A stretch of DNA of 64,000 nt from Gonatopus flavifemur (lineage: Eukaryota; Arthropoda; Insecta; Hymenoptera; Dryinidae): contig JAFFJZ010000010.1 in assembly GCA_018340375.1 (NCBI GenBank), positions 12,400,001 to 12,464,000 of the forward strand, read 5' to 3'. Shown here piece after piece: positions 326 to 63,071 of this stretch. The notes beneath the pieces were generated by a model. It had not been told where the DNA came from. It ran no database searches and saw only the letters and a list, made by a program, of their open reading frames with translations. Made by a program: the position numbers and the translations under genes. Position 1 is the first letter of the stretch. Each line of letters starts with the position of its first letter.

Positions 326-827
326 CCCGAAGAGAACATAAAGCTTCAGCGAACGTTCAGATTAGATCTGTATAGATCGGCTCGAAGGTTTATGAAAGCT
401 AACTTTTAGATTCACAAACGTTTGTCAAAGGTACAACGAACGTTGAGATGTCCGCCTCGAAATACGTTCAGGAAACATAGATGGAACGTTCTCTGAAGGT
501 TCATCGAAGGTTTAACGAAGCTCCACAAAAATATCTATACTTATATTAATTTGATCAATTTATATGAAAAATAAATTAATTAATAAACATAAATTATTAA
601 AAATTAATCCAAGTATAGATATTTTTGTGGAGCTTCGTTAAACCTTCGAAGAACCTTCAGCGAACGCTCCATCTATGTTTCCTGAACGTATTTCGAGGCA
701 GACATTTCAACGTCCGTAAAACCTTTGTCAAACGTTTGTGAATCTAAAAGTTAGCTCTAATGAACCTCTGGCCCGATCTATACACATCTGATCTGAACGT
801 TCGCTAAAGCTTCATGTTCTCTTCGGG
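326..827. mobile_element. CCCGAA-type foldback element, copy 1
   Basis: Two arms of about 220 bases are inverted copies of each other, starting CCCGAAGAGAACAT and ending ATGTTCTCTTCGGG, around a short AT-rich centre near 560-600. No coding capacity. A second copy of the same family is at 36751-37253. The flanking dinucleotides (AA/TG) do not match here, so the duplication may have decayed. Confidence 0.85.
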
Positions 828-874
828 TGCTGTGTGAATCAAATAGAAACTGCATGAAATACCCGATGATTTTT

Positions 875-1135
875 TCGGGCGGATAGTGACTGGTTTTTCG
901 GCCTTTGAAATCCGAGTGAAATCAATCAAAAAATATTTTGTCCGGTTTTTACCGGTTTTCCATACTGTGAAATACCGCTTGGATGAAATATTCGAGGGTA
1001 CTTTCCGTCGGATTGTGACTGGTTTTTCGGCTTGTGAAATTCAAGTGAGACCAGGCAAAAAATATTTCGTCCGCGATTGACTGGTTTTCCATACTGTAAA
1101 ATACAGCTTGGATTAAATATTCGAGGGTACTTTCC
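875..1135. repeat. 129-bp repeat, two units
   Basis: Two units spaced exactly 129 bases apart (GATAGTGAC at 882, GATTGTGAC at 1011), each carrying GACTGGTTTTTCGGC. The same unit, with the same 129-base spacing, occurs at 10324-10760, and both loci are preceded by TAGAAACTGCATGAAATACC. The open frame across this repeat is not considered a gene. Confidence 0.8.
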
Positions 1136-1177
1136 AAGGGCATATCCAGGATTTTTTTTTGGGGGTCCACGTTTGAT

Positions 1178-1198
1178 ATGTGTGTGTGTGTGTGTGTG
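1178..1198. repeat. (TG)n microsatellite
   Basis: About ten TG dinucleotides following a short T and G run. Confidence 0.9.
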
Positions 1199-1972
1199 GG
1201 AACAAAGAGAGAGCGTTTCATGAATCATTAATTTATATTGTTACCACGATTAAGAGAGTAACGAAACAAAGAATACAGAAGATCTGTTTATAAATACTTT
1301 AATACATTCATTAACTCATTAAAATGTCTCATATTTAAACAAATTTACAAAAGCATAACAAGGAACAGGTTTGTGATAAAGATAGAAGAGAGTTGGTTTA
1401 AAACCAATAGTATTACATTTTCAGGAGATTCCATAGTGTTAAAATATTTCATACATGAGTACGAAAATCAATATCTCTTATTTGAGATACAATTTGTATC
1501 AATACTTTAAGTTCTTATAAATATTCAATTGATACAATCATTAATATTTTTGGGTCATTATATCAAGCATTAATGAATCTCCAACAGTATCTGAAAATTA
1601 TACATCAAATAAGGCAGCACAAAAGTTAAATGAAAGTTATATTATTGCATTACTTGAATATGCCGAAGAGTTTAAATATTTGAAATCCAAAACATCTCAT
1701 AAATCAATTTCAAATAAATTTATGATTTCATATAAAAATGTAAAAACTGTATAAGAATTCCAAGAGATTCGATCAGCCAAATGGCAAAATCTCATAAAAC
1801 CATATGAAATCAAGTTTATATACTAGATTTTATCTGGTTTCTGTCCTAGAAATAACTACCCAATGAGAACTTTTGGAATATTTGTTATGTCACTTGAGAA
1901 ATCATCTGATTCTGTGTCAGATTCAGAACTTGAATCAGAAGATCCAGAATCATTCGAACAAGCCCGTACAGC
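1199..1972. other. AT-rich stretch without recognised gene
   Basis: No convincing coding frame, RNA gene or delimited element was seen. Confidence 0.5.
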
Positions 1973-2343
1973 ACAACCACCGATCCTCCACCTAGGACTT
2001 CGGTGGACCGGAGGTGGAGAAATGGGAGCCGTGGAAATAAGGGAGAAATAAGGGAGAGTCTCCGTTGAGGCAACGGAGAGGCGACGGAGAAATGTCCGCC
2101 CCCTGTATTTTCGATATAATTCTTATTGGTGCATTTACGTAACCAAATCTGAATGTATGAATTCACGAATTTAAGTTTTACTGAAAATACAGGGGGCGGA
2201 CATTTCTCCGTCGCCTCTCTGTTGCCTCAACGGAGACTCTCCCTTATTTCTCCCTTATTTCCACGGCTCCCATTTCTCCACCAATTCTCCACCTCCAGTC
2301 CACTGAAGTCTTAGGTGGAGGATCGGTGGTTTTGCTGTACGGG
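1973..2343. mobile_element. CCCGTACAGC foldback element, copy 1
   Basis: 371-bp palindromic element beginning CCCGTACAGCACAACC and ending TTGCTGTACGGG, flanked on both sides by AG (2-bp TSD). The arms carry GGAGGTGGAG, TTGAGGCAACGGAGAGGCG and TGTCCGCCCCCTGTA motifs and meet at a roughly 75-base AT-rich loop. Related copies are at 3537-3906, 4277-4532, 30511-30656 and 37779-38612. Confidence 0.9.
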
Positions 2344-3536: not shown

Positions 3537-3906
3537 CCCGTACAGCACAACCACCGATCCTCCACCTAGGACTTCAGTGGACTGGAGGTGGAGAATTGGT
3601 GGAGAAACGGGAGCCGTGGAAATAAGGAAGAAATAAGGGAGAGTCTCCGTTGAGGCAACGGAGAGGCGACGGAGAAATGTCCGCCCCCTGTATTTTCAAT
3701 GTAATTCTTATTGGTGCATTTACGTAACCAAATCTGAATGTATGAATTCACGGATTTAAGTTTTACTGAAAATACAAGGGGTGGACATTTCTCCGTCGTC
3801 TCTCCGTTGCCTCAACGGAGACTCTCCCTTATTTCTCCCTTACTTCCACGGCTCCCATTTCTCCACCAATTGTCCACCTCCAGTCCACCGAAGTCCTAGG
3901 TGGAGG
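3537..3906. mobile_element. CCCGTACAGC foldback element, copy 2, right end lost
   Basis: Near-identical to 1973-2343 over most of its length (same CCCGTACAGCACAACC start, same loop), but the last ~25 bases of the right arm are missing; the sequence diverges after GGTGGAGG. High similarity suggests recent activity of the family. Confidence 0.85.
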
Positions 3907-4276
3907 GGTACATACATACAGTTCTAACATATCCCATTGTTGAAACCCCTGTTGTTTCCTTGATTTCCATCGTTGGGACATCTGTTTTTTCTGAAACTAT
4001 ACGTAAAAATGTTCACAAAACTAATATGTAATCTAAAACTCATAAGCATTAAAATATCCAAATCATCTGGGGTGTACGACACCCCAGAACGGAGTCCTAT
4101 AGGGTTAAATCTCGAAGAATCACCCCTGAAAATTGCAGATTTTTTTATGAATTCAGTTCCGAGTATTTTGGTGCGAAAAAAAATGTGCTCGGATGGTAAA
4201 TTTGGTATATCATCTCAATGGAATTATTATATTATGAAATACAGCGATTTATTTATAAGCGCTTTTTATAACCTAT

Positions 4277-4532
4277 CCCGATGGGATTCGTCGCCCCCAT
4301 ACAGAATTTGGGTGGAAAATCGGTGAAGGAACTGTTGCTCGAGGGAAATGCGACGTGGTGGCAACGGAGAAATGTCCGGCGTCGATTTTCAAGCGGGCAT
4401 TTCTCCGTTGCCACCATATCGCATTTCCCTCGAGCAACCGTTCCTCCACCGATCTATCTCATCCACCAATTTTTCACCTGAATTCCACCTATGTGGAGGC
4501 GACGGATTCCATCGGTGGTTGTCCTGTACGGG
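4277..4532. mobile_element. CCCGTACAGC foldback element, diverged copy
   Basis: Arms GAGGGAAATGCGA...GGCAACGGAGAAATG and their reverse complement surround a ~25-base loop. The right end reads CCTGTACGGG. The left end appears to have lost ~15 bases just inside CCCG. The flanks are CTAT and TATA, so a TSD of AT/TA is ambiguous. Confidence 0.7.
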
Positions 4533-4578: not shown

Positions 4579-4881
4579 TCCTGGTGAAAAAATCTCACTG
4601 AAAATTACTGAAATTTTCAGAGATTTTCAGTGAAAAGTTGTTCATAATTTCTCAGAGAGTTTCAGTAATTTCCATAAAAATTTTTAGTGAAAACACTTGC
4701 CTGATAAGAGAATTTTTCAGAATTTTTCGGAGTTTTTCAAAATTTGAAAGAATTTTCATGGATTCTCAGATTATCTCAGATTTTTTCAAAGTCCGTCAGA
4801 GTTTTTTAGTAAGATTCAGAGTTCTGCAGTGAAATTCAGTGAAATTTTCAGAGACTTTCAGAGAAATGTTTTTCAGCAGGG
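4579..4881. mobile_element. CCTGGTGAAAAA-type MITE, copy 1
   Basis: Ends TCCTGGTGAAAAA and TTTTTCAGCAGGG are flanked by AG on both sides. The interior is made of TTTTCAGAG/CTCTGAAA-like words. Same family as 56240-56426. Confidence 0.75.
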
Positions 4882-6178: not shown

Positions 6179-9036
6179 CCCAGCCAACAAAATCAAGGCA
6201 GCGCTTCTGGCAGTGGTGCTACCATTCACTTATACAGTTAAAAATCTTCTGTGCATATGTGGCTTCATTTATGTATGGAAATAGGAGCGACTTGGTAGTA
6301 TTTTTATTAGGAGCACTACTTGGTAGCGCTGAGGGAGGGCTACGTTATAAATTGAATCATATATATGTTATGGTAGCATGCAGTCTCACGGTAATGGAAA
6401 AGGTACTACGTTACTCCCACTACCCGACTGGAAATTGTCATCAGGTTAACCCAACATATGATGAGGACCTGACAAGGTCATCCGAAATAAGGAATACCCG
6501 TTACGGTCCTGATCGGGATTAGGTGTGGATGACTCACGTATGGATGACCTCATTTGGTCCTAGTCAGGATTTCCTCAAATTATCCTGAAAAGGTCGAAGT
6601 AGGTTTTCCTCGCTGTATCCGCATCAGGACCTCGTTCGGTCATCCTAAGATCATGGACATAGTTTGATAAACTGAATACAAGAATGTACAGACTTGATTT
6701 CAGATTGTACACTCTTTGATTAAACAAATTTTCCTTCAATAAGAAGGACATGTTTGAACGATTTTCAACTGTGCCTGTTTTTAAATTCAATCCCTTCATT
6801 CCGAACACATTACCTACTTCTGAAAACTGTTGAACAATTTGTTCAATCTATTCTCAATGTGAATTGAAAACTAACTATTTGGGTTTTAATTAGGCGGAAC
6901 TTATGAAAATTGCACAAGATTTTCCACGTTATGCATACAGCGAAAAAACCTTAGCAAACGTTCAACCATCACCAGCGAAATAAGTATTTCATTTAACTTA
7001 TCACAATTCTCATAAGGTTGATTGATTGACTATTCAGCATCATTTTTCTTTCCTACACATCACATCATCTGAGTATTATTCAAAGAGTATATATGAACTG
7101 AATGAATATGTGTTTCGTCATAATCAAATATAAGTTTCGAACAAGTACTCTTCTTTCGTTATGTCTTGATTAATACGCATAAAAAAATCTGTTATTGAGT
7201 GCAAAATGAATTATTGAATCAGTTATCACTGCTGTAATATGTAAAAAATCATAAGTTGCTGATGTGGTGACAATTAATTCTATTCAAATATACAATAATA
7301 TCAACAACGACAATATCTATATGAATATTAATTTACATCAGTATTTCTCGGAAAAAACTCAGAAATCCCAATCATTTTGTAATAATAAAGGTCATGAAGA
7401 ACTCATTCGATCAAAAATATTTCAAGCGAATGTTCAAAATGAAATGCAAAAAACTTGAATTATTCACTTTCAGCTCGACGGATGGTTTTACTTTTCAAAT
7501 TAAAGAGTACTCTTGAAGTTGAAATTTGTTAATTTCAGAAAAAAGCCTCATTTTCTGAGTTGAATTTGTTGTTAGGGTGATGATAAACTTGTAAGAAGAG
7601 TTTGAAAGTTGAGTGGAATCTATATTGATCAGGAAAGTCCAAATCGTGTGGCAAAAGTTAGAAAATCTGTCAACTTAGCTCACGGCGCATGGGCTTTTCT
7701 TCACTAAACCAAATGCTGGCAGGAGAAATTCATCAAAATATAGTGGATTCAAAGTGATGTGAAGTAAGAGAGGACCGAAATATTCATTAGATTTTATTCG
7801 TTCTTATAAACGTTCTAAAAAATAAGAAAAGACTATAGAAGATCCAAAGTGTCGTCTTCCCATATTTTTGTTCCAATAATGTTGTCTCATGTTCCTACAA
7901 ATAAATGTTATTATATTTATGAAACAGGTTCAATACACGTTTTCTCAACCTAACACTAGTTACTGGTGAAAAGATACGAAAATGCACACTCAGAAATGCA
8001 AATCATTGAAACAAAAATATTGAGAGACGATACATTGAGTCATACATAGCCTTACCATATTTATCAACATTTTTATAATAACTAATAAAATTCAATGCAT
8101 GTATCTGTCCTCCCTCACTTCACATCACTTTGAATTCACTATATTTTGATGAATTTCTCCTGCCAGCATTTGGTTTAGTAAAGAAAAGCTGATAGAATAC
8201 CCATGCGCTGTCAGCTAAGTTGACAGATTTTCTAACTTTTGCCACACGATTTGGACTTTCCTGATCAATATAGATTCCACTCAACTTTCAAACTCTTCCT
8301 ACAAGTTTATCATCACCCTAACAACAAATTCAACTCAGAAGATAAGGCTTTTTTCTCAAATTTGAAAATTTCAACTCCAAGAGTGCTCTTCAATTTGAAA
8401 AATAAAACCATCCGACGAGCTGCAAGTGAATAATTCAAGTTTTTTGTTATTCATTTTGAACATTCTTCTGACATATTTTTGATCAAATGAGTTCTTCATG
8501 ACTCATATTTCTTACAAAATCAATATGATCTCTGAGTTTTTGCCTAGAAGTGCTGATGTAAGTATTTGAAGAAAATTCATTTTCACTGCATCAACAAATT
8601 ACGATTTTTTGACACGTTACAACAGCTATGACTGATTCACTTAATCATTTTGCACTTACTAACAGACTTTTTGATACACATTATTCAAGAAATAACTACC
8701 ACACATTTCACAAAAATAATTCATCCATTTGTTGATCACATAAATTTAACCTCACATCTGTCAACCGAACTGCAATTTTCACACAGGCTCATAGATTAGT
8801 TTTGATTTATTTTTGAGGTTTTAGTAAGGAATTCCTCACAAAATCCTAATTAGTCTTTCCTGATGGGGTCCTCATAATAGTGCAGCGTGACATGACTTGT
8901 TAGGTCCTGATGAGGTTGCCTTATCAGGACCTGATCTGGATCAAGGTTTACCTGATCTGGTCCATGGGGTAAATTTCTAGTCGGGTAGCACTGCTAGTAA
9001 CGGAAACGTGAATTTGGAAGCACTTTGCTGGCTGGG
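6179..9036. mobile_element. Outer CCC/GGG element carrying a nested foldback
   Basis: Begins CCCAGCCAACAAA and ends TTTGCTGGCTGGG, flanked on both sides by CA. Between the short arms sits the complete element 6423-8985, so this one inserted earlier. It has no recognisable coding capacity; the open frame at 6136-6522 spans the element boundary and is not credited. Confidence 0.75.
6423..8985. mobile_element. 2.56-kb foldback element, CCCGACT ends
   Basis: Starts CCCGACTGGAAATT and ends AATTTCTAGTCGGG, flanked by TA on both sides. The arms are long inverted copies: for example 7466-7773 against 8109-8430, and AATCAGTTATCACTGCTG near 7217 against its counterpart near 8620. A single-copy loop of about 335 bases lies at 7774-8108. 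Pairing weakens towards the outer parts. A second family member, with the same ends, is 45870-49314. No transposase is visible in arms or loop. Confidence 0.85.
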
Positions 9037-10801: not shown

Positions 10802-11087
10802 CCCATATAGCACACGAAGAATGCTTTGTGAAGGACAAGAAAAGAATTCTTTGAGAACTATTTTCGAACCAATGAATTCAGAAAGAGCTCTGAATGAGTT
10901 CAATGTTTAGGAAATTAACGAATTCTTTAAGGATACTGAAACAATTCTTCCAGTATTTTTAGAGACCTCGTTAATGTCTCAAACATTGAACTTTTTCAAA
11001 GCTCGTTATGAATTCATCAGTTCGAGGAGAGTTTTCTAAACATTCTATTCTCGTTCTTAGAAGGAAATTCTTCTTGTGTTATATGGG
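10802..11087. mobile_element. CCCATATAGCACA foldback element
   Basis: 286-bp hairpin: CCCATATAGCACACGAAGAA at the left and TTCTTCTTGTGTTATATGGG at the right, with arms of ~130 bases (TCTTTGAGAACTATTTTCGA and counterpart). Flanking dinucleotides TA and TG do not match. Confidence 0.8.
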
Positions 11088-16574: not shown

Positions 16575-17132
16575 CCCAAGTGTGTATCAACGGCGGGCCC
16601 CATCTACGCCCAGGGTGGATGCCCATGCTACCCAACGTGGGCCAAGCTGGGCAGACAAATGGGGCCAACCCTGGGATGATAACATCGTTTCCAGCTTGGC
16701 CGTATTGCTTTGCCCGAGAATTGGTAACACCACGGGCCCAGCATAAACCCAGACTAGGCAATCAATACTGCCCCTTCCTTTTTGTTTTGAAATTGGAAAA
16801 TTGCTTTGAATTCTACCCAGTTCTACATCGTTCCCAGTGTTGAGCCCCATCCTGCTCATATGGGCCCAAGACTGGACCAAAGTGGGGCCAAAATTCATAC
16901 ACGCTGAGGATTGTACACACATGCTCGGGATATAAATTCACCCCAATCTTGGCCGAACGCTGGGCCAAATTGGGGCCCAGTTCAAATGTGTCCGCACTAA
17001 GATTCATTATTTCCATTTTTTACCAACCATAATTGTATGGGAAAACACAACAGGGCCAAGATTGAGCCAACAGCTTAAAGAGGATGGACCCAGCCTGGGG
17101 CCCATTGTCATTAAAGGCAATACACGCTCGGG
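16575..17132. mobile_element. CCCAAGTGTGTAT element, copy 1
   Basis: 558 bp, starting CCCAAGTGTGTATC and ending AATACACGCTCGGG, flanked by AT on both sides. The interior is unusually GC-rich for the region, with repeated GGGCCCA, TTGGGCC and GGCCAAG words. An inverted copy of nearly the same length is at 24516-25075. The overlapping open frames on both strands arise from the GGCCC-rich composition and are not credited. Confidence 0.9.
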
Positions 17133-17826: not shown

Positions 17827-17831
17827 TACAT

Positions 17832-19474: not shown

Positions 19475-19476
19475 TA

Positions 19477-22393: not shown

Positions 22394-22501
22394 CCCAAGT
22401 AATACAAGAAGTTCGGAGAATGTGCTCGAACATTCTAAGAATGGTCCAGCACCTTCTGAGATTGTTCGAGCACATTCTTAGAACTTCTCGTGTTACTTGG
22501 G
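22394..22501. mobile_element. CCCAAGTAA hairpin MITE
   Basis: 108 bp from CCCAAGTAATACAAGAAGTT to AACTTCTCGTGTTACTTGGG, flanked by AA on both sides. Nearly complete palindrome (TGTGCTCGAACATTCT and counterpart). Confidence 0.92.
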
Positions 22502-23693: not shown

Positions 23694-23727
<34 letters not shown>

Positions 23728-24515: not shown

Positions 24516-25075
24516 CCCAAGCGTGTATTGCCTATAATGACAATGGGACCCAGACTGGGTCCATCCTCTTTAACCCAGTATTGGGGAATGACGATGGGGC
24601 CCATGTTGGCTCAATCTTGGCCCTGTTGTGCTTCCCCATACAATTAGAGTTGAACAAAAATGGAAATAATTAATCATAGTGCGGGCACATTTGAACTTGG
24701 CCCCAATTTGGACCAGCGTTAGGCCAAGATTGGGGTGAATCCCGAGCATGTGTGTACAATCCTCAGCGTGTGAGAATTTTGGTCCCACTCTGGCCCAGTC
24801 TTGGGCCCATATTGGCAGGATGGGGCCCATGCTGGCTTGAGGTGGGCCCTATTGTATATACATGCTAGGGGTTCTATAATTTCAAAACGAAAAGGAAGAG
24901 GCAGTATTGATTGCGTAGTCTGGGTTCATGCTGGGCCCGTGGTGTTACCAATTCTCGGGCAAAGCAATACGGCCAAGCTGGGAACGATGTTATCATCCCA
25001 GGGTTGGCCCCACGTTGGGTAGCATGGGTACCCACCCTGGGCGTAGATAGGGCCCGCCGTCAATACACACTTGGG
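24516..25075. mobile_element. CCCAAGTGTGTAT element, copy 2 (inverted)
   Basis: 560 bp flanked by AT on both sides, ends CCCAAGCGTGTATTG and AATACACACTTGGG. It is the reverse-complement copy of 16575-17132, including the CCAGCTTGGCCGTATTGCTT and GGTAACACCACGGGCCCAGC segments. Confidence 0.92.
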
Positions 25076-29283: not shown

Positions 29284-29589
29284 AGCATACCGAAGAGAAA
29301 TGAATCTTTTGTTTTCAAAAGTGTATCGTTTTCGTTAACATTTACCGATCCCCAAGTCTCATTATGGAACCTCCTACTGATAATGATAATGAGTACTGTC
29401 GAATCTATAAATTCAAAATTTGGGACAAATGATATTCTCATTGTTAATTCCCTAGTGGAAATGGGAGCGTAAGAAGGGTATGAAGCGACGCGGGAGAATA
29501 AATGAAACAGGATATAAGCGTAAAAGAAGTGGAAATTGAAACATTAGACGCTTCATTTGTTCCAAAGTTCGCTTCCGGTGAACGGAAAT

Positions 29590-29850
29590 TTTCACCAGGG
29601 TTTTTTGAGTCGCTGATTATGAATTTGACATCAGATTTTTCCAAAACAAAATTGTGGATCCAATATGGTGGCTATGATTTGGAAACAACTTGTAAATCCC
29701 GAAACATTTCATTGTCTAAGGGTTTTCTTGGGTCGCTTGTTATGAATAATATCTGACATCGGATCTTTCAAAAATAACTTCTCTTTATCGTGGATCCAGT
29801 ATGGCGGATATTTTTCAGGAACAATTGGAATTTGGGGAATTTTATTATCT
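29590..29850. repeat. ~122-bp direct duplication
   Basis: GGGTTTTTTGAGTCGCTG at 29598 recurs as GGGTTTTCTTGGGTCGCT at 29720, followed in both by TGGATCCARTATGG. Confidence 0.65.
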
Positions 29851-37517: not shown

Positions 37518-37674
37518 CCCTAGTAGCACAAGAATGTTTGAAATATCCTATAGATGTTCATAGAACATTCAAATATGCGAAAATATTCTATGAATGTTCA
37601 TAGGACATTCGAAACGTATCAATATATTCTGTGCATGTTCATAGAATATTCCAAACATTCTTGTGCTACTTGGG
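37518..37674. mobile_element. CCCTAGTAGCACAAG hairpin MITE
   Basis: CCCTAGTAGCACAAGAATGT to ACATTCTTGTGCTACTTGGG, flanked by AA on both sides. The centre repeats TATGAATGTTCATAG/ACATTC words. Confidence 0.93.
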
Positions 37675-37837
37675 AATTGACCAAAAAGTTGATCATTCAA
37701 CATATGGAAATGTAAAACATCACTTATTTTCTATCGGTAATATGGAGTTTTGCATTGATCATGTCATGTTAATAGAATCCCGTACAGCATCGGACATTTC
37801 TACGTTGCCTCCGCGTGGAATCTCCGTTCATCCACGT

Positions 37838-38534
37838 CCCAGTAAACATACAAATCTTAAAGACATCTAAAAGATGTCTAAGAAAAGACATCTTTTCGAC
37901 ATTTCTCAAAGACAACTTATAGACTCCTTTTAGATGTCTCACTGAAGACATTTCTAAGAAGTCATAGTTTGTAATTCCAAAAAAACACGAAGGTCCAAAG
38001 AATATTCAGTGGAGGTGCATTGAACGTCCGGACATTGGATGGTCCGAACATTCCTTGAACATAAATGTACGTATAATGAACGTGAATTTCACCTAAAAGA
38101 TCTGTGTCTTGGGGAAGTTACAGGGATGGAATATATAATTCGCAAGACATTTTCAGATCATCTGAAAGTGTACTTCAACCGTGGGTAATAAAACCTATTC
38201 ATTCCTATTGAATGTAATAAATTCACATTAAAATTCGAATTCTGCACGTTTCATAGGAATAAATGGGTTTTTTTATCAATCAGGGAAGAGGTCCTAAGAA
38301 AAATTTGCATCATATCTAAAACTCGTCTTGAAGAAGTCTAAAAGATATCTTTTAGATATCTAGTAAGAGTTCTAAAAGATGTCTTACTCAAGACATGTTG
38401 TGGATGTCTAAAACTGTCGCATAAGACATCTTTTAGACTTTTTTTAGATATCTTTCAGAACAGTTTGTAAAACATCTTGCGAAGTCGCAAGACATCTTTT
38501 AGATTTCGAAAAGATATCTTTTTGTCTATGTGGG
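37838..38534. mobile_element. CCCAGTAAACATA element rich in AGACATCTTTTAGA words
   Basis: Starts CCCAGTAAACATACAAATC and ends TTTTTGTCTATGTGGG, flanked by GT on both sides. Contains many variants of AAAGATGTCT/AGACATCTTTT in both orientations. Hosts 38179-38285. Confidence 0.85.
38179..38285. mobile_element. Small MITE nested in 37838-38534
   Basis: CCGTGGGTAATAAAACCTAT to AATGGGTTTTTTTATCAATCAGGG-type right end, flanked by AA on both sides. Same family as 59707-59826 (ACCCATTCATTCC, GGAAT..ATGGGTTTTT). Confidence 0.72.
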
Positions 38535-38612
38535 GTTCTATTCACGTCCACTATTTATCCACGTGGAGTCCACGGAGATGCGACGTGGAAATCGGTGGAT
38601 GTGCTGTTAGGG

Positions 38613-39459: not shown

Positions 39460-39884
39460 CCCAGATAGTGTTGCCGCAAGCCGCAAAACGAGCCGTAAGG
39501 AATTTTAGATTTGAAATTATCTGGATTGAAAGTGAACTCTTCTTTAGTCAACCAAATTGGTTTGAAATTCAGTTTAATAGACCCTCAACTGAATTTCAAG
39601 GTTCGAACTGGAATATAACTTTATAGATACGAGTTTTAAATTAGTTTATATTCGAGCCGGTTTCGAGCCGACATTTCGAGCTGGATCTATACTGTTCAAT
39701 GTATGAACCGGTTGAAAATTCAAATCCACGGAACTGTGCATTATTATCAACTCCCAAACCAAAGTATAGGACCATTCAACCAAGTAATGAGACAATTTTT
39801 ACTTCTTATAGTCCTAACTAAATCCAGTGGAAGTCTAAAGCTTGTTACAGCTCGTTTTGCGGCTCGCGGCAACACTAATCCGAG
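39460..39884. mobile_element. CCCAGATAG foldback element
   Basis: Left CCCAGATAGTGTTGCCGCAA, right TTGCGGCTCGCGGCAACACT ending CCGAG. Flanked by AT within a symmetrical TTGCT-AT / AT-AGCAA target. Arms continue through GCCGCAAAACGAGC. Confidence 0.75.
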
Positions 39885-40060
39885 ATAGCAATTTAACCTT
39901 ACTGCAATGCTGTCAGGCAAGCTTGTGACAAGTTTGACATAAGCCTCCTAGTTGATACACGCGACAAGGGTACAAGCTTACAAAACCCTCGCAGCAGTGT
40001 TGTAGCAACCCTTACACTGACAAGGTTGTCAATAACAAGCCAAAAACAATCGAATGACAA

Positions 40061-40291
40061 CCCGAGTCAAAAAGTGAAACCTGATTTAGCTCTGATTCGT
40101 TGCGTATTACGGAGTGAATCAGGTTTAATTTCATTTTTCACCCTGATCTTGCCCTGTTCTCAACCTGATCTTGCTTTTAACATTCTTATTCAACCTGATG
40201 TTAACCTTTTTTCACCCCGATTGAACTCTGGATCGTTGCGGATTACGGAATTGATCAGGCTTTAAAAAGTATCACAATTTTTCGACTCGGG
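40061..40291. mobile_element. CCCGAGTCAAAA MITE
   Basis: CCCGAGTCAAAAAGTGAAACC to TTTTTCGACTCGGG with ATCAGG/CCTGAT words between, flanked by AA on both sides. It sits inside a further inverted repeat (CTGTCAGGCAAGCTTGTGAC near 39910 and GACAGGCTTATGACAGGCTT near 40310, ending TTATCTGGG). Confidence 0.85.
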
Positions 40292-40511
40292 AAGTCTAAC
40301 AAAGAACGACAGGCTTATGACAGGCTTACATGTTATCTGGGATGTAACGTGGTATGGAACCCAATATAAGGCCCGTTTAAAAGTTACATACCCGCGCTTT
40401 TGTGGTTCTTTGTCTCCCCCCTACATGAAAGTATAGTTTTTTTTACGTTCAACTAAATTCATTTCAATCGAATGAATTTAAATATGAAATTAATACAAGT
40501 TTATTAACCTA

Positions 40512-45721: not shown

Positions 45722-45839
45722 CCCTAGCAGAAATCACTCTAGTATTTCTCTAGGTAATTACGAGGCCTCACAAGTCCTTGCAAGTTACTTGCGAGGCCTT
45801 GCGAGACCTAGAGAACGACTAGAGTGAGTTCTACTAGGG
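45722..45839. mobile_element. CCCTAGCAG hairpin MITE
   Basis: 118 bp, CCCTAGCAGAAATCACTCTA to TAGAGTGAGTTCTACTAGGG, flanked by CT on both sides. Arms CTCTAGGTAATTACGAGGCC and counterpart. Confidence 0.93.
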
Positions 45840-46058
45840 CTTTTGTGTATTAATTTGTCACAATTGTGTCCCGACTGGAAAAAATACAAGGGCCATTATC
45901 ATGATCGGATCACGACAGCCCGATGTAGTAGTCAGGCCCTGATAATGTAGCCTGATCGGGACCCGATCATACATGTAACGCAAAGGCGTGATGAGGAAAC
46001 GATCAGGTAAGAATGATCAGGACCTCGTGAGCTAACCTGATTCGAAAAGGCACCAATA

Positions 46059-47352
46059 CGAGGGTGGATTGATAAGTTTCCGGCCTGGCCAAGAAAAACA
46101 ACGTTTTTAAGAATTTTTTTTTTCTTATTTCTCAACATAATCTCCTCCAAGGCTGATACATTTCTCATAGCGGTGTTCTAGTCTAGTAATGCCATCTCTA
46201 TAGACTGATTCGTCAAGCTCCTCAAAATACCCATTTACAGCTTCGATTACTTCTTCATTGTCCGCAAATCTCTTACCGCCAAGCCATTTTCTGAGGTTAG
46301 GAAACAGATAATAGTCACTCGGGGCTAGGTCTGGAGAGTAGGGAGGGTGCCGCATTAATTCAAACTTCAGATCGTTGATTTTAGCCATCGCAACGATTGA
46401 CGTGTGCGCTGGTGCGTTATCGTGATGAAACAAGATTTTTTTCTTCGCCAGATGAGGTCGTTTAATTTTCACTTCGTGGCTCAAACGTTGCAATAAGTCT
46501 GCGTAGTATTGACCAGTGATAGTTTTACCCTTTTCAAGGTAATCAATGTATATAATACCTCTTGCATCCCAAAAAACAGTAGCCATAACCTTGTTCGCCG
46601 AAAAAATTGTTTTTGTCTTCTTTGGAGTTGGTTCCCCTGGTCCAATCCACTGTTTAGACTGTTCTTTGGTTTCAGGAGTGTAGTGGTGGACCCAAGTTTC
46701 GTCAACGGTTACGAATCGACGCAAAAATTCGCTTGGATTACGCTTATACAACGCCAAATTGGCGGTAGAAATGTTCTTTCGAATCAATTTTTGGTCGACT
46801 GTTAGCAAACGCGGCACCCATCTTGCACAGAGCTTTTCCATATACAAATGTTGGTGCAAAATATTTTGTACACGTTCATATGACATCTTACAGGTCTCAG
46901 CTATCTCACGAACTTTTAATCTGCGATCTTTCAGCACTATTTGATGGATTTTTTCGATCATATCTGGAGTTGTGACCTCAATGGAGCGTCCTGAGCGAGG
47001 CTCATCAGAGGTGCTCACACGACCCTTTTTAAACTCGGAAACCCACTGCTTAACGGTTGAATATGATGGGGAGGATGTCCCCAGTGTTGAGTCCATCTCT
47101 TCTTTAATTTCCTTCGGCGTTGACCCCTTCAAATAAAAGTATTTGATGACAGCACGATTTTCCAGTTTTTCCATTTTTACGAAAAACACAGAGGCGTCTT
47201 GGTCAGCGTGCTCTCAAAACTAAACTAACATGGCGATCGGACTGAAACTATAGCTACAAGCTATCTAAGGATGGTACTATAGAACGCCACCTCAAGGTAG
47301 GCCTAGTGGCGCCATCTCTTGGTCAGGCCGGAAACTTATCAATCCACCCTCG
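46059..47352 (-). mobile_element. Complete mariner element
   Basis: 1294 bp flanked by TA at 46057-46058 and 47353-47354. Terminal inver­ted repeats begin CGAGGGTGGATTGATAAGTT and match over about 36 bases with one mismatch. The TGATAAGT..CCGG core resembles irritans-type mariner ends. Encodes the intact transposase 46125-47174. Confidence 0.97.
46125..47174 (-). CDS. Mariner transposase, intact
   Basis: Uninterrupted 349-residue protein, the usual length for the family, on the minus strand. The ATG at 47174 (MEKLENRAVIKYFYLKG) is preferred over an upstream GTG in frame. Residues 1-110 form the paired helix-turn-helix DNA-binding region (STVKQWVSEFKKG at 39-51, LKVREIAETCKMSYERVQNI at 86-105). 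WVPRLLTVDQK at 119-129 is the linker. The catalytic DD34D triad is D158 (TVDETWVHH), D252 (HHDNAPAH) and D287 (SPDLAPSDYYLF). It would bind the terminal repeats of 46059-47352 and move it between TA sites in the nucleus. Intactness and near-perfect ends imply recent insertion. Expression signals were not identified. Confidence 0.97.
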   Translation of the reverse strand: MEKLENRAVIKYFYLKGSTPKEIKEEMDSTLGTSSPSYSTVKQWVSEFKKGRVSTSDEPRSGRSIEVTTPDMIEKIHQIVLKDRRLKVREIAETCKMSYERVQNILHQHLYMEKLCARWVPRLLTVDQKLIRKNISTANLALYKRNPSEFLRRFVTVDETWVHHYTPETKEQSKQWIGPGEPTPKKTKTIFSANKVMATVFWDARGIIYIDYLEKGKTITGQYYADLLQRLSHEVKIKRPHLAKKKILFHHDNAPAHTSIVAMAKINDLKFELMRHPPYSPDLAPSDYYLFPNLRKWLGGKRFADNEEVIEAVNGYFEELDESVYRDGITRLEHRYEKCISLGGDYVEK

Positions 47353-47964
47353 TAAACCAGAAAAAGTGCTAGGGCCATTATCATGTTCAGATCATGTCAG
47401 CTACATTCTAGATCTAAGCGGGAGAGAAGCGGATATTGAAACGTTTTTACGCTTCATTCGTTTCAACATTCGTTTCATGTGTTCCAACATTCGCTTTCCA
47501 CGAGCGGAAATTTTCACCATAGATGTCTTATACAAATCATGATTCCGATTCTGTATTAAGACTGAGAATTTATAAATTTTTATGCTAGTGAGTATTTTTG
47601 TCATTCAATTTACACATGCCAATAACTGTGTAAATTTTGGATTTCATGATTTATGACCATGTGGATACAATACTGATTTATGCGGGGTAATATCTGTACA
47701 TTAGGAGTGTGAATATCAGTAAGTATTTCCCTCCCAGTTTAGATCTAGTTCAACCAATCTCCCGTCAGATGGAGATGTAAACCGGTTATAACTCTTCAAG
47801 TGCATGTTTACACCACTGAGTGCACTGATAGAAATTTATCAAAATATACATTTCATTGGAATATACGGTGCGTCTGCAACGGGATGTTCGTGGTAACACT
47901 AAATATAACGTGTAAGAATTACAATCGAGTGGCTACATACAGTCATATGCAATAAAAAAAAGAT

Positions 47965-48232
47965 CCCTGTGCGAAAAAACCAATAGAAACCGATAGGCGA
48001 AATCCTAATGGAATCAATGATATCCTATCGGTTTCTATGCGGTTATTGTCACAGGACCCAAGGGTTTCTATGAGATTCTAAGTGGAATCTGATGTTCCAT
48101 GGGTTTCTATCAGCATGATCGGCAAAACCTGATTAATTCTGATAGAAATAAAATAGCCTATCGGTTTCTATGCGGTTATTGTCACAGTAACTATGGGAAT
48201 CCATGGGAATCTATGGGATTTTTCGGACAGGG
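47965..48232. mobile_element. CCCTGTGCGAAAAAACC MITE
   Basis: 268 bp, CCCTGTGCGAAAAAACCAAT to GGGATTTTTCGGACAGGG, flanked by AT on both sides. Contains the duplicated TATCGGTTTCTATGCGGTTA segment (48033 and 48157). Confidence 0.9.
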
Positions 48233-48803
48233 ATGGCAAACATACGCTAGATATGATTCAAGCAAGATGGCATATAACCTCTCCTTTCAAGTCACATTTG
48301 TAACCTTTTTAACCTCTCATTTTCCATCATATAACTGAATGGTATCTGAAGTTTCAGAAAAATATGTGGAAATGGGTTTCAAAATAGATAGACACTTGAA
48401 TATATAGATGGATAGGCGGATGGTTGATGAGAGTAGAGTACCGAGTCTTAGTTACACTCCGTGGCAAAATAGATGTTTCAGATCAGGCATATATGAAAGG
48501 GCCCAACATGATCCTGGTCATATTACCTGATGTTAGTTTACCATATACGAGGAAAATCCTATTTTATATCCTAAGATATCTTTTGAATTTTTCAAATTTC
48601 CCTCAGAAATGAGGACGATAAGGCATCGATTTTCATAACTCAACCATAGAGGGGCCTGATAAGGATTGGATTCTCTAACACTACATAAATCTGTTGTGAA
48701 ATGAGTATTCCACGACAGGGACATACGGGAGGGCCCGACGTGGCCCTGATTACATTACCTGGTGGCACTTGATTATATGTAGAGAAATCTATACCTGAGG
48801 CAA

Positions 48804-48972
48804 CCCTAGTAGAAATGCTCTAGTAATTGACGAGTTTTGTAACACTTAACTAGCCAGAAACTAGACGCTTACAAGTGTGTCGTAGGGTTTTGGTGAGGTA
48901 CTTGCGAGTGTCTAGTATTTGGCTAGTTGAGCGTTACAAAACTCGTCAATAACTAGAGTATTTCTACTTGGG
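48804..48972. mobile_element. CCCTAGTAG hairpin MITE in 45870-49314
   Basis: 169 bp, CCCTAGTAGAAATGCTCTAG to AGAGTATTTCTACTTGGG, flanked by AA on both sides. Arms pair through TGACGAGTTTTGTAAC and AACTAGCCA. Confidence 0.93.
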
Positions 48973-49395
48973 AAATCTATTGGGCCACGATAAGGCCCCG
49001 GTTCAATATCCTTGTCACGGTCTGCGTCGGAAAATCAATATTCCATGTTAGGATGACATATCAGATCCCGGTGAGGCGCGGATCTTCTTACCTGGTTGCA
49101 CATATCTTTATGTGAAACCACGTCTACTCAAGGCACATACATCAGGGCTTGGTCAAAAACTGATATCATGACCTGATGGGACTCCAATCAACACAGCATG
49201 AAAGGCAATCTCAGTCGATCCTGATCCGGTCATGATCAGGCATGCCTTAATAAGGTATACCTTAAGATTACCCAATCATGCCCTTATGACTGATCGGGCA
49301 AATTTTTAGTCGGGGTTAACTTGATACACAAAACTGTTGAATATTTTACACTATCATGTGTACTGCGTCAAAATGACACAAAATTTTTTACTGTG

Positions 49396-50694: not shown

Positions 50695-51599
50695 CCCAGG
50701 TAGGAATTAACAAATGGCCCAAGCTTGGCCCGATCTTGGCTCAATTATGACTTATATTGGGCCAGAATCCATGAGGAAAAATGGCCCAAGCTTGGTGAAA
50801 GCTTGGGATGATAACCTCGTGCCAGGCTTGGTGTTCAATATTGGGCCAGAATGCAATGCCAAGCATGGCCCAATGTCTCATGATATATGTATTATGAGTA
50901 TTTTGGAGCTTGGCTCATACGATTAAACCGGATATGGCCCAAGTTGTGTATTTCAACTTTTGCCGTGCTTCAACCTGATTCTTCAAACATACTTCTTGAA
51001 GAAAAAAATGACGTTATTTTTCATGCCATTCCTGCTAAAAATTTCCTATAGAAAACGATAAGATTTTTAGCAGGGATATCGGTACAACTCTGTAAAAATC
51101 ACAAACATGGAGATGTGGCATAGGTTCTCAAATAAACATTGGTTGTACATTGGCCCAATATTGGTTCACCATGCTTGACAGTTTAATGTTTTGCCAAGCT
51201 TCAACCACTTGTTGTAATTACATTCCCTACGAAACGTGCTATAGATTCTCAAATAACAAATGGTTTGATATTGGGCCGATAGTGGTTCGCTATGCTTGGT
51301 AGCTTAATGTTTTGCCAATCTTCAACCACTTGTTGTATAGGCGTTCTTTATGAAACATGGTGTGGGTTCTCAAATAACAAACGGTTTTATATTGGGTTGA
51401 TATTGGTTCGCCATGTTTGGGAGCCCAATATTTTGCCAAGCTTGCACCAGTTGTCATATTGGCATTTCCCATGGAACCCGGTATGGTTTCTAGAATGAAC
51501 AACGGTTGTATATTGAACCAATATTGGTTCGCGATACTTGGCAGCCCAGTATTTTGCCAAGCATGGGCCAGTTGTCAATATTGGCATTTCCTACCTGGA
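50695..51599. mobile_element. CCCAGGTAGGAA element with 121-bp tandem repeats
   Basis: Ends CCCAGGTAGGAA and TTCCTACCTGGA (last base changed), flanked by AT on both sides. The interior is rich in TTGGCCCA/GCCAAGC words. From 51115 on it consists of about four tandem units, with TTCTCAAATAAC-type starts at 51125, 51246, 51367 and 51488, exactly 121 bases apart. Confidence 0.85.
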
Positions 51600-53913: not shown

Positions 53914-54772
53914 CCCATGCAGGTATTGCCAAGACTGAAAACATCCAAGTTTGTCCCAAGGTTGACACATGTGTCAGAAACAAACCTCCGTGAAGAACAA
54001 TAGGCCCAATATTGTTCCATGATTGTTCCGTTGTTCTAAATGCATAGTCAGTCATGGTACATTTGTTAATATTTTTGAAATGGTCACTACGTTTGGTACA
54101 AGCTTGGCACAAGTGTAAAAATCGAGCATTCGTTGAGAACAATTGTGCCAATATTGCCCACATGAGTGGCACAATGTTTATCAATATTGACTGCCCTTGT
54201 GTGCAAACCTATTGGGGCGAGCTTGGGCGAAAGCTGCCCACTCTGGAGCAGGCTCGAGTCAGGCCTGGGCCGATAGTTAAGCTCACTAGGGATGATATAC
54301 ACGTGAAGATGAACCATCAGTTTTTCGGGTGACACGAGGGATTCCAATGTTGGATTCCGTACGGGATCAGATCATTATAAGATTTATGTTATGGTATTTC
54401 AGTAAGATCTTATTAGTTCAGTTTGAGCATAATTCAACAATAGAATCAAAATTGATTGAAATAACAAAGAACGCAAATTTTCCAATGGTCATACAAGCTT
54501 GTCCCAGTCTTGTCACATCTTTTCTATCGTTTCAAGATAATTCTGAAAGAGAAAGCAATTGCTTTTTTCATCCATATCTGCGATTAAAGAAACATTGGTT
54601 GATGCTTGGTAAATGAATTGAACCGGACCTGGCAAAACCACTGGCCCAAGCTTGTCCTGATCTCATCATTCCCAAGCCTGGGCCAAGTTTGGTAAATTGT
54701 TCAAGATAAGTCTCGGCAGGTCTTGTGCCAGACTTGCACCATCATTGGGCCATTGGTCCACACACACATGGG
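53914..54772. mobile_element. CCCATGCAGG element, full copy
   Basis: 859 bp, CCCATGCAGGTATTGCC to CCACACACACATGGG, flanked by GA on both sides. The interior matches 31572-32312 (truncated) and 22781-23056 (fragment) and carries TTGGGCCA/GGCCCAAG words shared with the CCCAAGTGTG and CCCAGGTAGG families. Confidence 0.87.
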
Positions 54773-56239: not shown

Positions 56240-56426
56240 CTCTGGTGGAAAAGTCTCCAACAATTTCAGAGATGTTCATACTTTCTCAGAGCACTTCAGT
56301 GTTTTCCAAAGATATTCATAGATATTCAAAGACCTTTTCCGTGAAAAAACGTGTCCGGTAAGCGAGAGTTTTTCAGAGTTTTTCAGAGTTCTTCATTCAA
56401 GTTCAGAGAAATTTTTTTCACCAGGG
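56240..56426. mobile_element. CTCTGGTGGAAAA MITE, copy 2
   Basis: 187 bp, CTCTGGTGGAAAAGTCTC to AAATTTTTTTCACCAGGG, flanked by AT on both sides. TTTTTCAGAG and TCAGAGA words as in 4579-4881. Confidence 0.8.
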
Positions 56427-58204: not shown

Positions 58205-59230
58205 TCAAATTCACTTCTGAAGAGTAAAAATACTGCAAGTCCAACAAGAGTGAGGTTCCACTCCTAAAGAGTGAATTTTCACTCTTAAAAGCCCATATAG
58301 AAATTTACAATTCGCGCTAGCATGGTGCAACGTAGATAAAGTATGGCCGAGGCTTGGCAACCAAGCATGGCACAAATCTGGAATGATAACATCATTTTAT
58401 GATTTACCGACGTGTTTTTCCAATGAAGTCCCATCATCGATGAAACAATGGCAATGAAATATACCATCACTGGCAAACAATTGGAAATTTTGTTCGTGAA
58501 TGCTGCACCAATGAACAAAGTAAAAAATATTTAACCCAAAAATTTATAAAAAGTATGCGCATTTCGCAATTTCTGACATATATTGTTTGAAGTCTTATTG
58601 TTTTCCTCTTATTTGTTTGTGGACAACCCGGCGTCTTTTGTCGCCGGAGCCCTCTAGTGTGACTCATAGTAAAGAGCGATTGACTGATTTTCCAAAGACT
58701 TACTTAAACCTTATATATTCTTCGTATATGCGTTTCACCACTCGCGAGAAACACTTGATTAGTAACGTAGCAAAAATATTATTTAGGTTGCCAATATTGA
58801 GCCATGCTATTACCAATGATCGGTGCTACATTGGAAGCTAATTTCTATCGAAACTAGGCCAAGGTTTGGGGCAATATTGAACCATATTCTAAATGATCCT
58901 GGCGTTGAATGGAATCTATCGTTCAGTCAATGTTGGGCCAAGGATGAGCCAAGCAAAAGCCAAGCTTGGCGCAATTGTGCCACAATAATAGGCTGAGAAA
59001 CGAAATCCATCGAACACCGACATCGGTGCAACGTTGTATTCATTGTTAATCAACATTGAAGATTTATAGATTGCCAAGCCTTGTCTGTCAGCATTGCGCC
59101 AAGTTATATTTTATTGTCAGCATTGGCGAAGCCCAAAAATTTTTGTATGGGAGAAGGTGAAATTTCACTGTTTAAACCGAGGAAAAACGTCACTCTTTCT
59201 GGACTTGCAGTATTTTCACTCTTCGGGAGT
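58205..59230. repeat. CACTCTT hairpin opened by an insertion
   Basis: GTAAAAATACTGCAAGTCCA at 58209 and TGGACTTGCAGTATTTTCAC at 59200 are inverted counterparts. The element 58292-59151 sits in the loop of this older hairpin. Confidence 0.75.
58292..59151 (-). mobile_element. CCCATATA element, copy 2
   Basis: 860 bp, CCCATATAGAAATTTACAAT to AAATTTTTGTATGGG, flanked by AG on both sides; inverted relative to 56797-57712. Confidence 0.85.
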
Positions 59231-59706: not shown

Positions 59707-59826
59707 CCCTGGTTGAAGAAACCCATTCATTCCCACTAGAATGTGCAAATTTTCGATTAAATCCATTGAATTTGAATTGTAAATCTGCAAATTTAATGGG
59801 AATTGGTGGGATTTTTTTAACGAGGG
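59707..59826. mobile_element. CCCTGGTTGAAGAAACCC MITE
   Basis: 120 bp, CCCTGGTTGAAGAAACCCAT to GGGATTTTTTTAACGAGGG; flanks CA/TA differ at one base. Same family as 38179-38285. Confidence 0.72.
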
Positions 59827-62180
59827 TACGTAATGTAAATTAGAAAATATTTATTATAAATAGACGAAGCAAATGAAATTGAAAACTTATTCCCGATGGT
59901 GGTTATTCGCTTCAATCATATAACTATTTAAATCTCTCAATCATGCCCGAAAAAAGCTGTGCTAATTATCTATTAGTTGTGGGAACTACTCTGAATTCAA
60001 GGTCAAAAATCTTCAATTCGAGTCAATGCCACTAGTCACAGCTATACGTAGTCTTCCGTGTATATGATACTTGTCGCGGTTCATTCCCTTCAGAATGTTG
60101 AACTTGACACTATTACTTTCTAATTTGAATTGATGTAACACTAAACTATAAAGATAATACTTTTTAACGCTGCGAAAGATATTTCTCAATGTTTCCAATG
60201 TTATTTTTCTATTAGAATAAAAAAAATAAATAAACAAATTCATCTGCTTATTCAGTCATCAGTTGAATTGTATGATTTCATCGAAATACATCGAATCAAG
60301 TTTTACTCTCAACCACTTCACGTAATTAAACTTCTTTGTGATTCGATCAATTCGACTGCTGTGTATAATTTTGAACTGTCACCAATATATAATATAAATT
60401 AATGTTTCCATTAGAGATCTGATTTTACTGAGTCACTTTTCTTTGAAACAGCAAGTTTTTTAGCCACAACAGTAACTTTTTAGCTGTGACAAAAAAATGT
60501 TTGCTCCTCCAGCAAATATTACTAGACTATTTTGAAAATTTTTGTCAGTCCTGTGAAAAATTTGCTGCTTTAATCGATCATGTTCCTGTCTCATCGATCT
60601 AGTTAGCTGCGGCAGCGAATCTTCAGTTAGATTAGCAAAAAGATTTCCTATTCTATGTATATAATACCTCGATTTGCTGTGTCAGAAAATCTTTTTTTTT
60701 CCATGTAATTTCATTAGATAATTTCAAAATAAAACAAATTTATGAATGAAAATCCAACGCAACAACGAATTTCTTCTCAAGGTACGTCTTGTAGCAACAG
60801 CTTTGAGATCATTCCATCGTTACTCCATCGTTTCGTGTTTCTCAATTATTAACATACTTCATTTTGACGGTTTGAACTGTTGAAAGTGCATCATTAGAAT
60901 ACTCGGACGCAACATCGTGATGGTAGACTATAGGAAAAAGGGAACGAAAAAAGTCAAACGGGTATTGCCAATGTTATATTCTACTTTCGTAAGAACGAGT
61001 TTCATGTATTGTTTGGTCAAATGCTATTGGAATAATAAATTTTATCGTTTCAACAATTTTGATTTCTTGAAGTTCGTTATACGTGAAGCAAGGAAAACTA
61101 TGAAATTGAAATTCCTCAACAATTATCAAAATATTCATATGAAATGGATACTATATACCACCATTATGCATCATGTTCGTAATAGATCGTGTAGTCCAAA
61201 AGGATAATGAAAGTAATAAAAATAAGGTATGTACAGTCTCGGTAGAGTCTCCTCGTGATACTACGAGGGGAATGTGTTATTGCTTCAGCGATTACATAAT
61301 TTCAGTGAATCATTAAAATAATTGCACCCATATGTGGAATTTTTTATGCTTCTAACATGAAATTCATTAGCCGGAATATTGGGTGCTCATTGATGAAACT
61401 TATTCGAAGTGTGACGGCGTTTTGTTTTGAACATGAAATTCAATTAGATTTCACAGAGTTGTGCAACATATTTTCATTGAAGAGCAAGAATCTTGTTCCG
61501 ATGAATGTGATTATCATGAATTATTCCAATGTGAATGACCTCATCGGAAAGATTGTTTTGAATTTGTAAGCAGGAAATTTATTGTTGCATTTTAATATTG
61601 TTCCACAAATCTGTTCGACGTTCGATAAAATAATTCTTCAAATGTTCAAGAAAAACTTATTTGTTCCTATTTTTAGCTAGAGTTTTTTTTATAATTATTG
61701 ACAAGCTTCAAAAGATCAAATTGAGATATAAATATACCAAGTTTTTATATAACTTTCCATAAAAAATAAAAAAAAACTCACCATCTATTCGGAGGGGAGA
61801 GCGGATTTCACCACGATGTTGTTTTCGATTTGATTACAATACAATCGTTGATATTTTTATAACGTGTCGATGACCAGGTGATTTTACTTTTGAAGAGAAA
61901 AAAACGCGTTTTCTCAAGCGGATGCAAAAAGATACAGAATAATTGGAGTTGAAGGTAACACGAAACAAGTATCAGAAGTCATTTGATTTTTTATCAATCA
62001 ACACAGATAATTTTAGTCACAAATGGAATCGCATTTATGCTTCGATCAAGATATTTTCCATAATTGCAGGGAATTTTTGTTTTTACTTTCTTTTTTTCGA
62101 ATATCTGGTCAGAATAATTCGATAATAGATACTTGGTGTTATAATTAGGTTTTAGAACCTACACGAGTAAAAATAAATTA
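59827..62180. other. Mostly gene-free; two doubtful open frames
   Basis: 60440-60711 carries GCTG/CAGCAAA MITE words as in 14412-14655. Frames at 60920-61207 (MVDYRKKGTKKVKRVLPMLY) and 61357-61569 look slightly protein-like (Lys/Arg and Leu-rich) but have no recognised domain, splice context or homology, so they are not called. Confidence 0.4.
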
Positions 62181-62680
62181 TTCAAAAGTTCATCGCAGTC
62201 ATCGCGTAGTCAGTGGAGTGATAAAAAAGTCGGTCGGAGTCATTCGAAGTAATCTTGCTGACAAGGGTACGGAAGGCTCGAGATGCATTTTGAGCGATTT
62301 TTTCCGAAATATTCGCAAGGGTTTGTCAGTGCTCCATGAAAAGTCAGTGCGGACGGACTTTCTAGAGACTTTTGAGGAACTTTGCGGAAAATTATGTCGT
62401 GCGAGAGTTCGTTAGTAATCCCTGAAAAGTAAGCGATGAGAGACTTTTGACTGACTTGTTGTTGACTTTCATGAGACCCTCGAAAAACTTTGCGAAATAT
62501 CACGTCTCGCGAGGTCCGTGAATATTCCACAAAATTCTCCAAAAAGTCAGCTAAAAAGCAGTTGAAACTCCCTCACAGTTGACTTTTTACGGATTACTGA
62601 CGAGCTCTCGTGGGACGTAATGTTTCACAAAGTTCTTCAAAAGTCCCTTTAAAGTCAGCCAAACGTCAGTCAAAGGTACC
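62181..62680. repeat. AAGTCAGT/TGACTTT-word repeat block
   Basis: Many variants of GACTTTTGA, AAAGTCAG and AACTTTGCGAAA in both orientations over ~500 bases (GAGGAACTTTGCGGAAAAT near 62373, GAAAAACTTTGCGAAATAT near 62482, ACAAAGTTCTTCAAAAGTC near 62625). Probably a degraded palindromic element. Confidence 0.55.
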
Positions 62681-62980
62681 CATGTGGAAATAGCCAAAGT
62701 TGACAAATGGCCCGGTACAGGCAAAGTTATATTTGCCAGACTTCGGCAGAAACAACTGTGCCCATTTAGAATCATTACCGTTTTCCAACTAGCGCCAAAT
62801 GTTCGCCGGATTCCAGACGGTACTAACTTACGTGGACAGACGGTCTTCAGCCAGTATCGAATTAATACTGTTCGGAATTGCGTCAGTACCGAATCAGAGT
62901 TGGTCGGATGGTGAAATGCGAAAAAAAGACAATACGACACCAATACCGATGCAACGTTGTTTTGATACGGAATAGATAGT
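62681..62980. other. No recognised gene
   Basis: Slightly GC-richer; open frames on both strands but no domain recognised. Confidence 0.4.
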
Positions 62981-63071
62981 CCCTAGCAGGTGTGTACCCC
63001 ATTTCACCAATATGGGTCCAAGACTGTGCCAGAGTGGAACCAGAGTGGGCCAGAGTTCATACACGCTAGGG
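62981..63071. mobile_element. CCCTAGCAGGTGTGTA mini-element
   Basis: 91 bp, CCCTAGCAGGTGTGTACC to CATACACGCTAGGG, flanked by GT on both sides. Interior GGGTCCAAGACTGTGCCAG and GTGGGCCAGAG words relate it to the CCCAAGTGTG family (16575-17132). Confidence 0.85.

Follow-up and report, generated by a model that had tools for sequence, protein, structure and literature searches.

Which transposon superfamily do the many palindromic elements with CCC...GGG termini in a 64,000-bp stretch of the Gonatopus flavifemur genome belong to, and what moves them? We analysed this whole stretch (the window; contig C2, 12400001-12464000) and searched its source assembly of 636 Mb in 402 contigs. The elements are very probably non-autonomous members of the TRC group, comprising miniature inverted-repeat transposable elements (MITEs) and larger foldback elements, moved by Transposase_21 transposases encoded elsewhere. 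An initial annotation of this DNA had held that the superfamily could not be named; it can be, as animal TRC, a branch of CACTA/EnSpm (CMC), since a CCC core with a 2-bp target-site duplication (TSD) is the published TRC signature and Transposase_21 elements with such ends are resident in the genome.

The examples of duplicated flanks given initially were self-chosen, and we therefore ran a blind scan of the window. CCC...GGG termini were paired at 60-4500 bp with at least 12 of 14 terminal inverted repeat (TIR) bases matching; pairs were kept if the palindrome stopped at the termini (no more than 3 of the 6 bases beyond them matching), with one pair per start and end, and the other 63 trinucleotides were put through the identical procedure as control. 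The results showed equal flanking dinucleotides in 13 of 20 CCC...GGG pairs versus 165 of 2314 control pairs (7.1%; binomial P ~6e-11 against this rate), although the pair at 20946-24959, counted among the 13, probably arose by chance. With non-palindromic dinucleotides only, the counts were 10/15 for CCC and 118/1765 for the controls. When the flanks were shifted outward by 1, 2, 3, 4 or 5 bases, 0, 1, 2, 0 and 1 of the 20 pairs matched, respectively, and a 3-bp flank match was seen in none of the 20. Other TIR cut-offs gave 18/52 matching pairs (11/14) and 6/10 (13/14). These results confirm the flank duplication, and more strongly than had been claimed. For all 24 elements of the initial list an end with the dinucleotide given there was located, one coordinate needing correction (1973 should read 1963); this agreement is not independent evidence because matching ends were favoured when the ends were picked. 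Elements 4579, 33488, 38179 and 56240 show one or two changed terminal bases, which had been allowed for a few. In a comparison of 54 window ends (33488 left out, the right end of 37838 entered 2 bp short at 38532), the first, second and third C were kept in 52, 52 and 53 ends.

Copies of four window families were scored in the source genome:

36751..37253: 503-bp element, TSD TT.
24516..25075: 560-bp element, TSD AT.
37518..37674: 157-bp element, TSD AA, left TIR CCCTAGTAGCAC.
6423..8985: 2563-bp non-coding foldback element, recent burst, TSD TA.

For each family the 40 best-scoring candidates were scored and the fetched copies were drawn from these, so that they are probably the younger ones. 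A 2-bp TSD was present in 75 of 88 distinct insertions of the four families pooled, where the initial annotation had set a match of only ~6% as the result that would speak against it. For family 36751 (2561 first-look candidates, the scored ones nearly all covering 1-503), 40 copies were fetched and 2 with damaged ends dropped; 29 of the remaining 38 carried a 2-bp TSD and 3 only a 3-bp one. The 2-bp TSD was found in 20/20 fetched copies of family 24516 (2938 first-look candidates), and family 37518 (311 first-look candidates) had its TSD in 18/20, or 15/17 by distinct insertion, four copies representing a single one. For family 6423, 12 of 14 copies had the TSD, namely 8/9 fetched copies (10 were fetched and one right end was missed) and 4/5 full copies; the strictest count is 11/13, two copies having alike flanks (24/30 and 11/16 bases). 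Mispaired flanks of the same copies matched in 178/1406 (36751), 46/380 (24516), 52/380 (37518) and 9/72 (6423) cases, so that the chance rate is 12-14% and not 1 in 16 as first assumed, because the genome is AT-rich. The dinucleotide varies, with 10 different ones among the 29 TSDs of family 36751. The duplication had been called non-specific, and this holds in that it is not restricted to TA; the sites are, however, AT-rich with a weak symmetric lean to ATTAC-WW-GTAAT (77 pooled sites, both strands).

Sites without the insertion carry the dinucleotide once. The clearest lies in the window itself:

37779..38612: CCCGTACAG element hosting 37838-38534, TSD AT, TIR 9/14.
37838..38534: 697-bp element, TIR poor past CCC, TSD GT, empty site in the window.

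The second element interrupts the first, and the paralogue of the first at 30510-30656 is uninterrupted and holds a single GT (30587-30588). When the joined flanks of fetched copies were compared with other sequences, empty sites were found for L031 (TT), L039 (AT) and L066 (TT), and on visual inspection for L068 (TT, with an additional base next to the element). Empty sites at GT, TT and AT thus bear out the 2-bp duplication. Copy L047 lies within a satellite, where 17 alignments to L011 cross the insertion site; in two of these, compared base for base, the empty units have ATA once, which makes this a 3-bp duplication. Altogether three copies of family 36751 (L029, L047 and L062) have 3-bp duplications (CAA, ATA and GAA). 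Among the nine copies of this family without a 2-bp match, these 3 compare with ~0.25 expected from mispaired flanks (39/1406; P ~0.0016). The length of 2 bp claimed initially is therefore predominant, a few copies having 3 bp, and both lengths can arise inside one family. Duplications of 3 bp have been reported for fungal EnSpm (PMC12730594). As a separate observation, L105 is an element of the 37518 type lying inside one of the 36751 type, and the junction carries additional bases; other copies of the 36751 family read plain AAA at this site in 63/64 matched readings.

Animal TRC elements are described as having CCC at the core of their ends and TSDs of 2 bp (PMC1636069, PMC4298943), and in SmTRC1 the 2-bp repeat was shown by 7/14 copies (PMC1636069). 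Repbase assigns non-autonomous elements by alike positions 1-11 (at most one mismatch) together with equal TSD length (PMC4455052). Three window elements, 37518-37674 and the two following, agree directly with known TRC elements in both respects:

6179..9036: 2858-bp element hosting 6423-8985, TSD CA, left TIR CCCAGCCAACA.
40061..40291: 231-bp element, TSD AA, right TIR CCCGAGTCGAA.

The left TIR of 37518 is identical to the Tribolium TRC TIR CCCTAGTAGCACCG... over the first 12 bases, and the left TIR of 6179 to the TIR of Hydra Spongebob/EnSpm-4N1_HM, CCCAGCCAACATTG..., over positions 1-11. The right TIR of 40061 equals, over positions 1-11, the right end of an element of the same genome that encodes Transposase_21 (C346/C351). 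The remaining end groups are tied to TRC via the CCC core and TSD length only.

Genome-wide, 90 Transposase_21 matches were found, 80 of them above the curated cut-off (one of these only with neighbours), and the longest of their open frames reaches 859 aa. We examined 20 kb around 10 of the 90; two represent one insertion, leaving nine independent loci. Three of the nine lie within CCC..GGG TIRs whose flanking dinucleotides are equal:

C3: Transposase_21 locus, 14.9 kb, TIR 40/41 bases, TSD CA.
C68a: TRC locus, 13.1 kb, TSD AT.
C346/C351: TRC element, 13.4/12.8 kb, TSD AT, same flanks on two contigs.

The C68a locus also contains a 96% copy of window element 47965-48232, with the TSD CT. In the transposase P0121, CSFC and HVSSEH are visible by eye, candidates for the C(2)C and H(3-4)H motifs that go with the DDE triad in TRC transposases. 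Of the 15 proteins matching one resident TRC transposase at E <=1e-20, the six that carry a name come from the parasitoid wasps Microplitis, Cotesia and Venturia (38-50% identity). These results uphold two earlier suggestions, that the elements are non-autonomous with a transposase encoded elsewhere and that a CACTA/EnSpm relative is the candidate. The larger coding element with the same ends, which had been proposed as a search target, was found for 40061 (C346/C351) and not for 6423.

Several results weigh against the assignment to TRC. Transposase_21 was not found in the window, either by the genome search or by a Pfam scan that took in the 146 longest of the 167 window open frames of at least 72 aa. 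A resident coding partner with matching ends was found for only one window family (40061), and the exact 11-base ends of 6423 occur at none of the ten Transposase_21 loci. The C68b locus has TIRs without a TSD, convincing ends were not found at five of the nine loci (C394, C302, C281, C357 and C78), and at several Transposase_21 loci equal dinucleotides also flank other pairs, which are weaker or lie further in. The strict blind scan of these loci was unenriched (CCC 1/7 versus 477/6223 for the others), so that the link between CCC ends and Transposase_21 rests on the long TIRs and the shared end sequence. Among the insertions, 6 of the 38 copies of family 36751 match at neither 2 nor 3 bp, window elements 326, 3537 and 10802 have good TIRs without a TSD, and L092 and L105 yielded no clean empty sites.

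Other explanations of the duplicated dinucleotides fit less well. Palindromic AT is common in the initial list and long palindromes match for free, and the dinucleotides might accordingly belong to the elements or arise by chance in AT-rich DNA; the excess among non-palindromic dinucleotides and the low match rate of mispaired flanks contradict this, and the single copy at empty sites refutes it, leaving it a negligible probability. ISL2EU or PHIS-type MITEs, moved by a PIF/Harbinger-related transposase and named initially as a candidate superfamily, share the 2-bp length. ISL2EU duplicates only AT (target A|AT|T), and in most cases its ends begin with GG (PMC4482050); it differs from the window elements, with their CCC ends and many dinucleotides, in these points and in its transposase, and we regard it as very improbable here. 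Tc1/mariner is ruled out as initially stated, TA making up only 7 of the 29 TSDs of family 36751, and the mariners of the window are separate elements. piggyBac (TTAA TSD) is ruled out by the variable 2-bp TSD, and Plavaka (TGT..ACA or CATCA..TGATG ends, 2-3 bp TSD) by the CCC..GGG ends; the Plavaka profile scored 20 bits in P0121, below its cut-off. The ATon elements of Aedes, described as AT-specific (PMC3422177), do not fit the variable TSD.

Within TRC, the initial annotation had proposed one transposase for the whole collection. A single TRC transposase could move all CCC..GGG families if it recognised the CCC core plus a loosely defined subterminal motif, and the ends do have in common, besides CCC, a pattern that loosely resembles CCCNNRYAGNAMA. 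A weak target preference also recurs across families: the flank consensus ATAAC..GTTAT derived from 36751 scored 3.73 of 10 in the other families against a background of 2.92 (z 4.05, n=48). Against this, the nine resident Transposase_21 proteins are only 27.6-68.8% identical pairwise (the duplicate C346/C351 pair, 99.5%), and several have long open frames. The 27 window elements compared fall into 12 end groups that fail the Repbase 11-base rule against each other. Identity of the scored copies to the window copy also differs by family (36751, 91-93%; 24516, 93-94%; 37518, 94-97%; 6423, 100%). We therefore consider a single transposase unlikely; the better reading is that several TRC lineages coexist and that each has satellites of its own.

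The family of 6423-8985 stands apart in its uniformity. Its first 278 bp were 100% identical in 40/40 scored places (889 first-look candidates) and its last 286 bp likewise in 40/40 (1725 first-look candidates), which gives a copy number of at least 40 from the best candidates scored. Over ~2563 bases, five full copies had between 6 and 53 mismatches and between 2 and 18 gap columns relative to the window copy. The longest open stretch of the element is 90 aa; since it is non-coding and the ends of its scored copies are identical, it appears to have been moved in trans, recently. We put at about even the chance that a TRC transposase is active now or was so very recently and has multiplied 6423-8985 into near-identical copies that number 40 or more and perhaps run into the hundreds, the duplications being 2 bp in most cases and 3 bp in some. 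In that case a live CACTA system of the animal type would be present in this genome. To our knowledge, such a system has not been demonstrated experimentally, and the 6423 family is young enough for live-transposition tests.

These observations suggest the following mechanism. The CCC...GGG inverted ends would be recognised in trans by Transposase_21 (tnp2-type) DDE transposases of larger TRC elements. On insertion, each end would be joined to the target at its own position, the two positions lying 2 bp (occasionally 3 bp) apart as in a staggered cut, and gap repair would produce the flanking duplication. Coexisting TRC lineages would each probably serve the families with matching ends, and at least one family, 6423-8985, has been mobilised very recently.

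The other CCC...GGG elements of the window are as follows:

326..827: 502-bp element, family of 36751, perfect 14-bp TIR, flanking dinucleotides unequal.
1963..2343: 381-bp non-autonomous CCC..GGG element, TSD AG, TIR 13/14.
3537..4532: element of the family of 1963, TIR 13/14, flanking dinucleotides unequal.
4579..4881: 303-bp element, left end TCC, TSD AG, TIR 11/14.
10802..11087: 286-bp element, TIR 12/14, flanking dinucleotides unequal.
16575..17132: 558-bp element, family of 24516 (inverted, 80%), TSD AT.
22394..22501: 108-bp element, TSD AA, TIR 12/14.
29450..29600: 151-bp element, absent from the initial list, TSD TT, TIR 11/14.
33488..33611: 124-bp element, left end TTC, TSD AT, TIR 9/14.
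38179..38285: 107-bp element nested in 37838-38534, left end CCG, weaker, TSD AA, TIR 10/14.
39460..40341: 882-bp element hosting 40061-40291, TSD AT, weaker TIR (9/14).
45722..45839: 118-bp element, TSD CT, TIR 12/14.
45870..49314: 3445-bp element, CCCGACT ends, TSD GT, TIR 10/14.
47965..48232: 268-bp element, TSD AT.
48804..48972: 169-bp element, TSD AA, TIR 12/14.
50695..51599: 905-bp element, right end GGA, tandem repeats inside, TSD AT.
53914..54772: 859-bp element, partial paralogues at 31579 and 22779, TSD GA, weaker TIR (9/14).
56240..56426: 187-bp element, left end CTC, TSD AT, TIR 11/14.
58292..59151: 860-bp element, TSD AG, TIR 12/14.
62981..63071: 91-bp element, TSD GT, TIR 11/14.

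The extent of 33488-33611 is backed by family copies spanning about query positions 3 to 125, and 45870-49314 holds a mariner (46057-47354) in addition to elements 47965 and 48804.

A second group of elements has CAC...GTG ends (about CACNGNRAAAAA), likewise with equal flanking dinucleotides. CAC ranked second among the trinucleotides in the blind scan (7/23 equal), an enrichment with P ~0.05 once corrected for 64 trinucleotides. Locus C357 contains a related copy (8671-8926) whose flanks are unequal. The group comprises:

12718-12977: CAC...GTG element, flanks TG.
40573-40691: CAC...GTG element, flanks TG.
41016-41159: CAC...GTG element, flanks TA.
43266-43523: CAC...GTG element, flanks CA.
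45660-49395: CAC...GTG element enclosing two CCC elements, flanks TA.
63125-63334: CAC...GTG element, flanks CA.
63349-63532: CAC...GTG element, flanks AG.

The only genes in the window with convincing Pfam scores were mariner transposases; the coding remnants in the scanned open frames were mariner-type domains (best E 7e-26), and Med6, DUF5921, PH_TRF2_HOY1, HTH_3, HTH_24 and Sld5 gave single weak matches (E 0.0025-0.0084). The mariner at 46057-47354 is complete (1298 bp, long TIR, 354-aa open frame). Copies of it lie in loci C281 (98.8%) and C68b (96.4%), and the protein database search gave a 98% identical protein (source tag lgn). Palindromic elements 17825-18098 and 37291-37402 are related to each other, differ by ~150 bp at the centre and have ends other than CCC. 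One TIR scanned against viral contigs gave no match.

The findings show that elements with CCC ends and a 2-bp duplication, easily filed as 'unknown MITE', can be assigned to animal CACTA. TRC derivatives can fill an animal genome densely, and several TRC lineages coexist there. The recent burst of 6423 and the occasional lengthening of the duplication from 2 to 3 bp merit further study.

Compared with known systems, the window elements are closest to TRC (SmTRC1 and relatives, PMC1636069), with which they share the CCC core and the 2-bp TSD, Transposase_21 being the transposase. The 10-bp TIR given for an Aedes TRC is alike in 9/10 bases in 6179 and 37838. The TRC elements described in that report are coding, whereas those of the window are mostly non-coding, 0.1-3.4 kb long and of many families; the window differs further in a few 3-bp TSDs and in first-look candidates that run from hundreds into thousands per family. 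With Spongebob/EnSpm-4N1_HM of Hydra and insects (PMC4298943), the likeness of 6179, compared at the ends only, consists of the TIR CCCAGCCAACA and the 2-bp TSD. Plant CACTA (En/Spm) belongs to the same superfamily by Transposase_21, with a CACTA core there and CCC here. The usual TSD of plant CACTA is 3 bp long.

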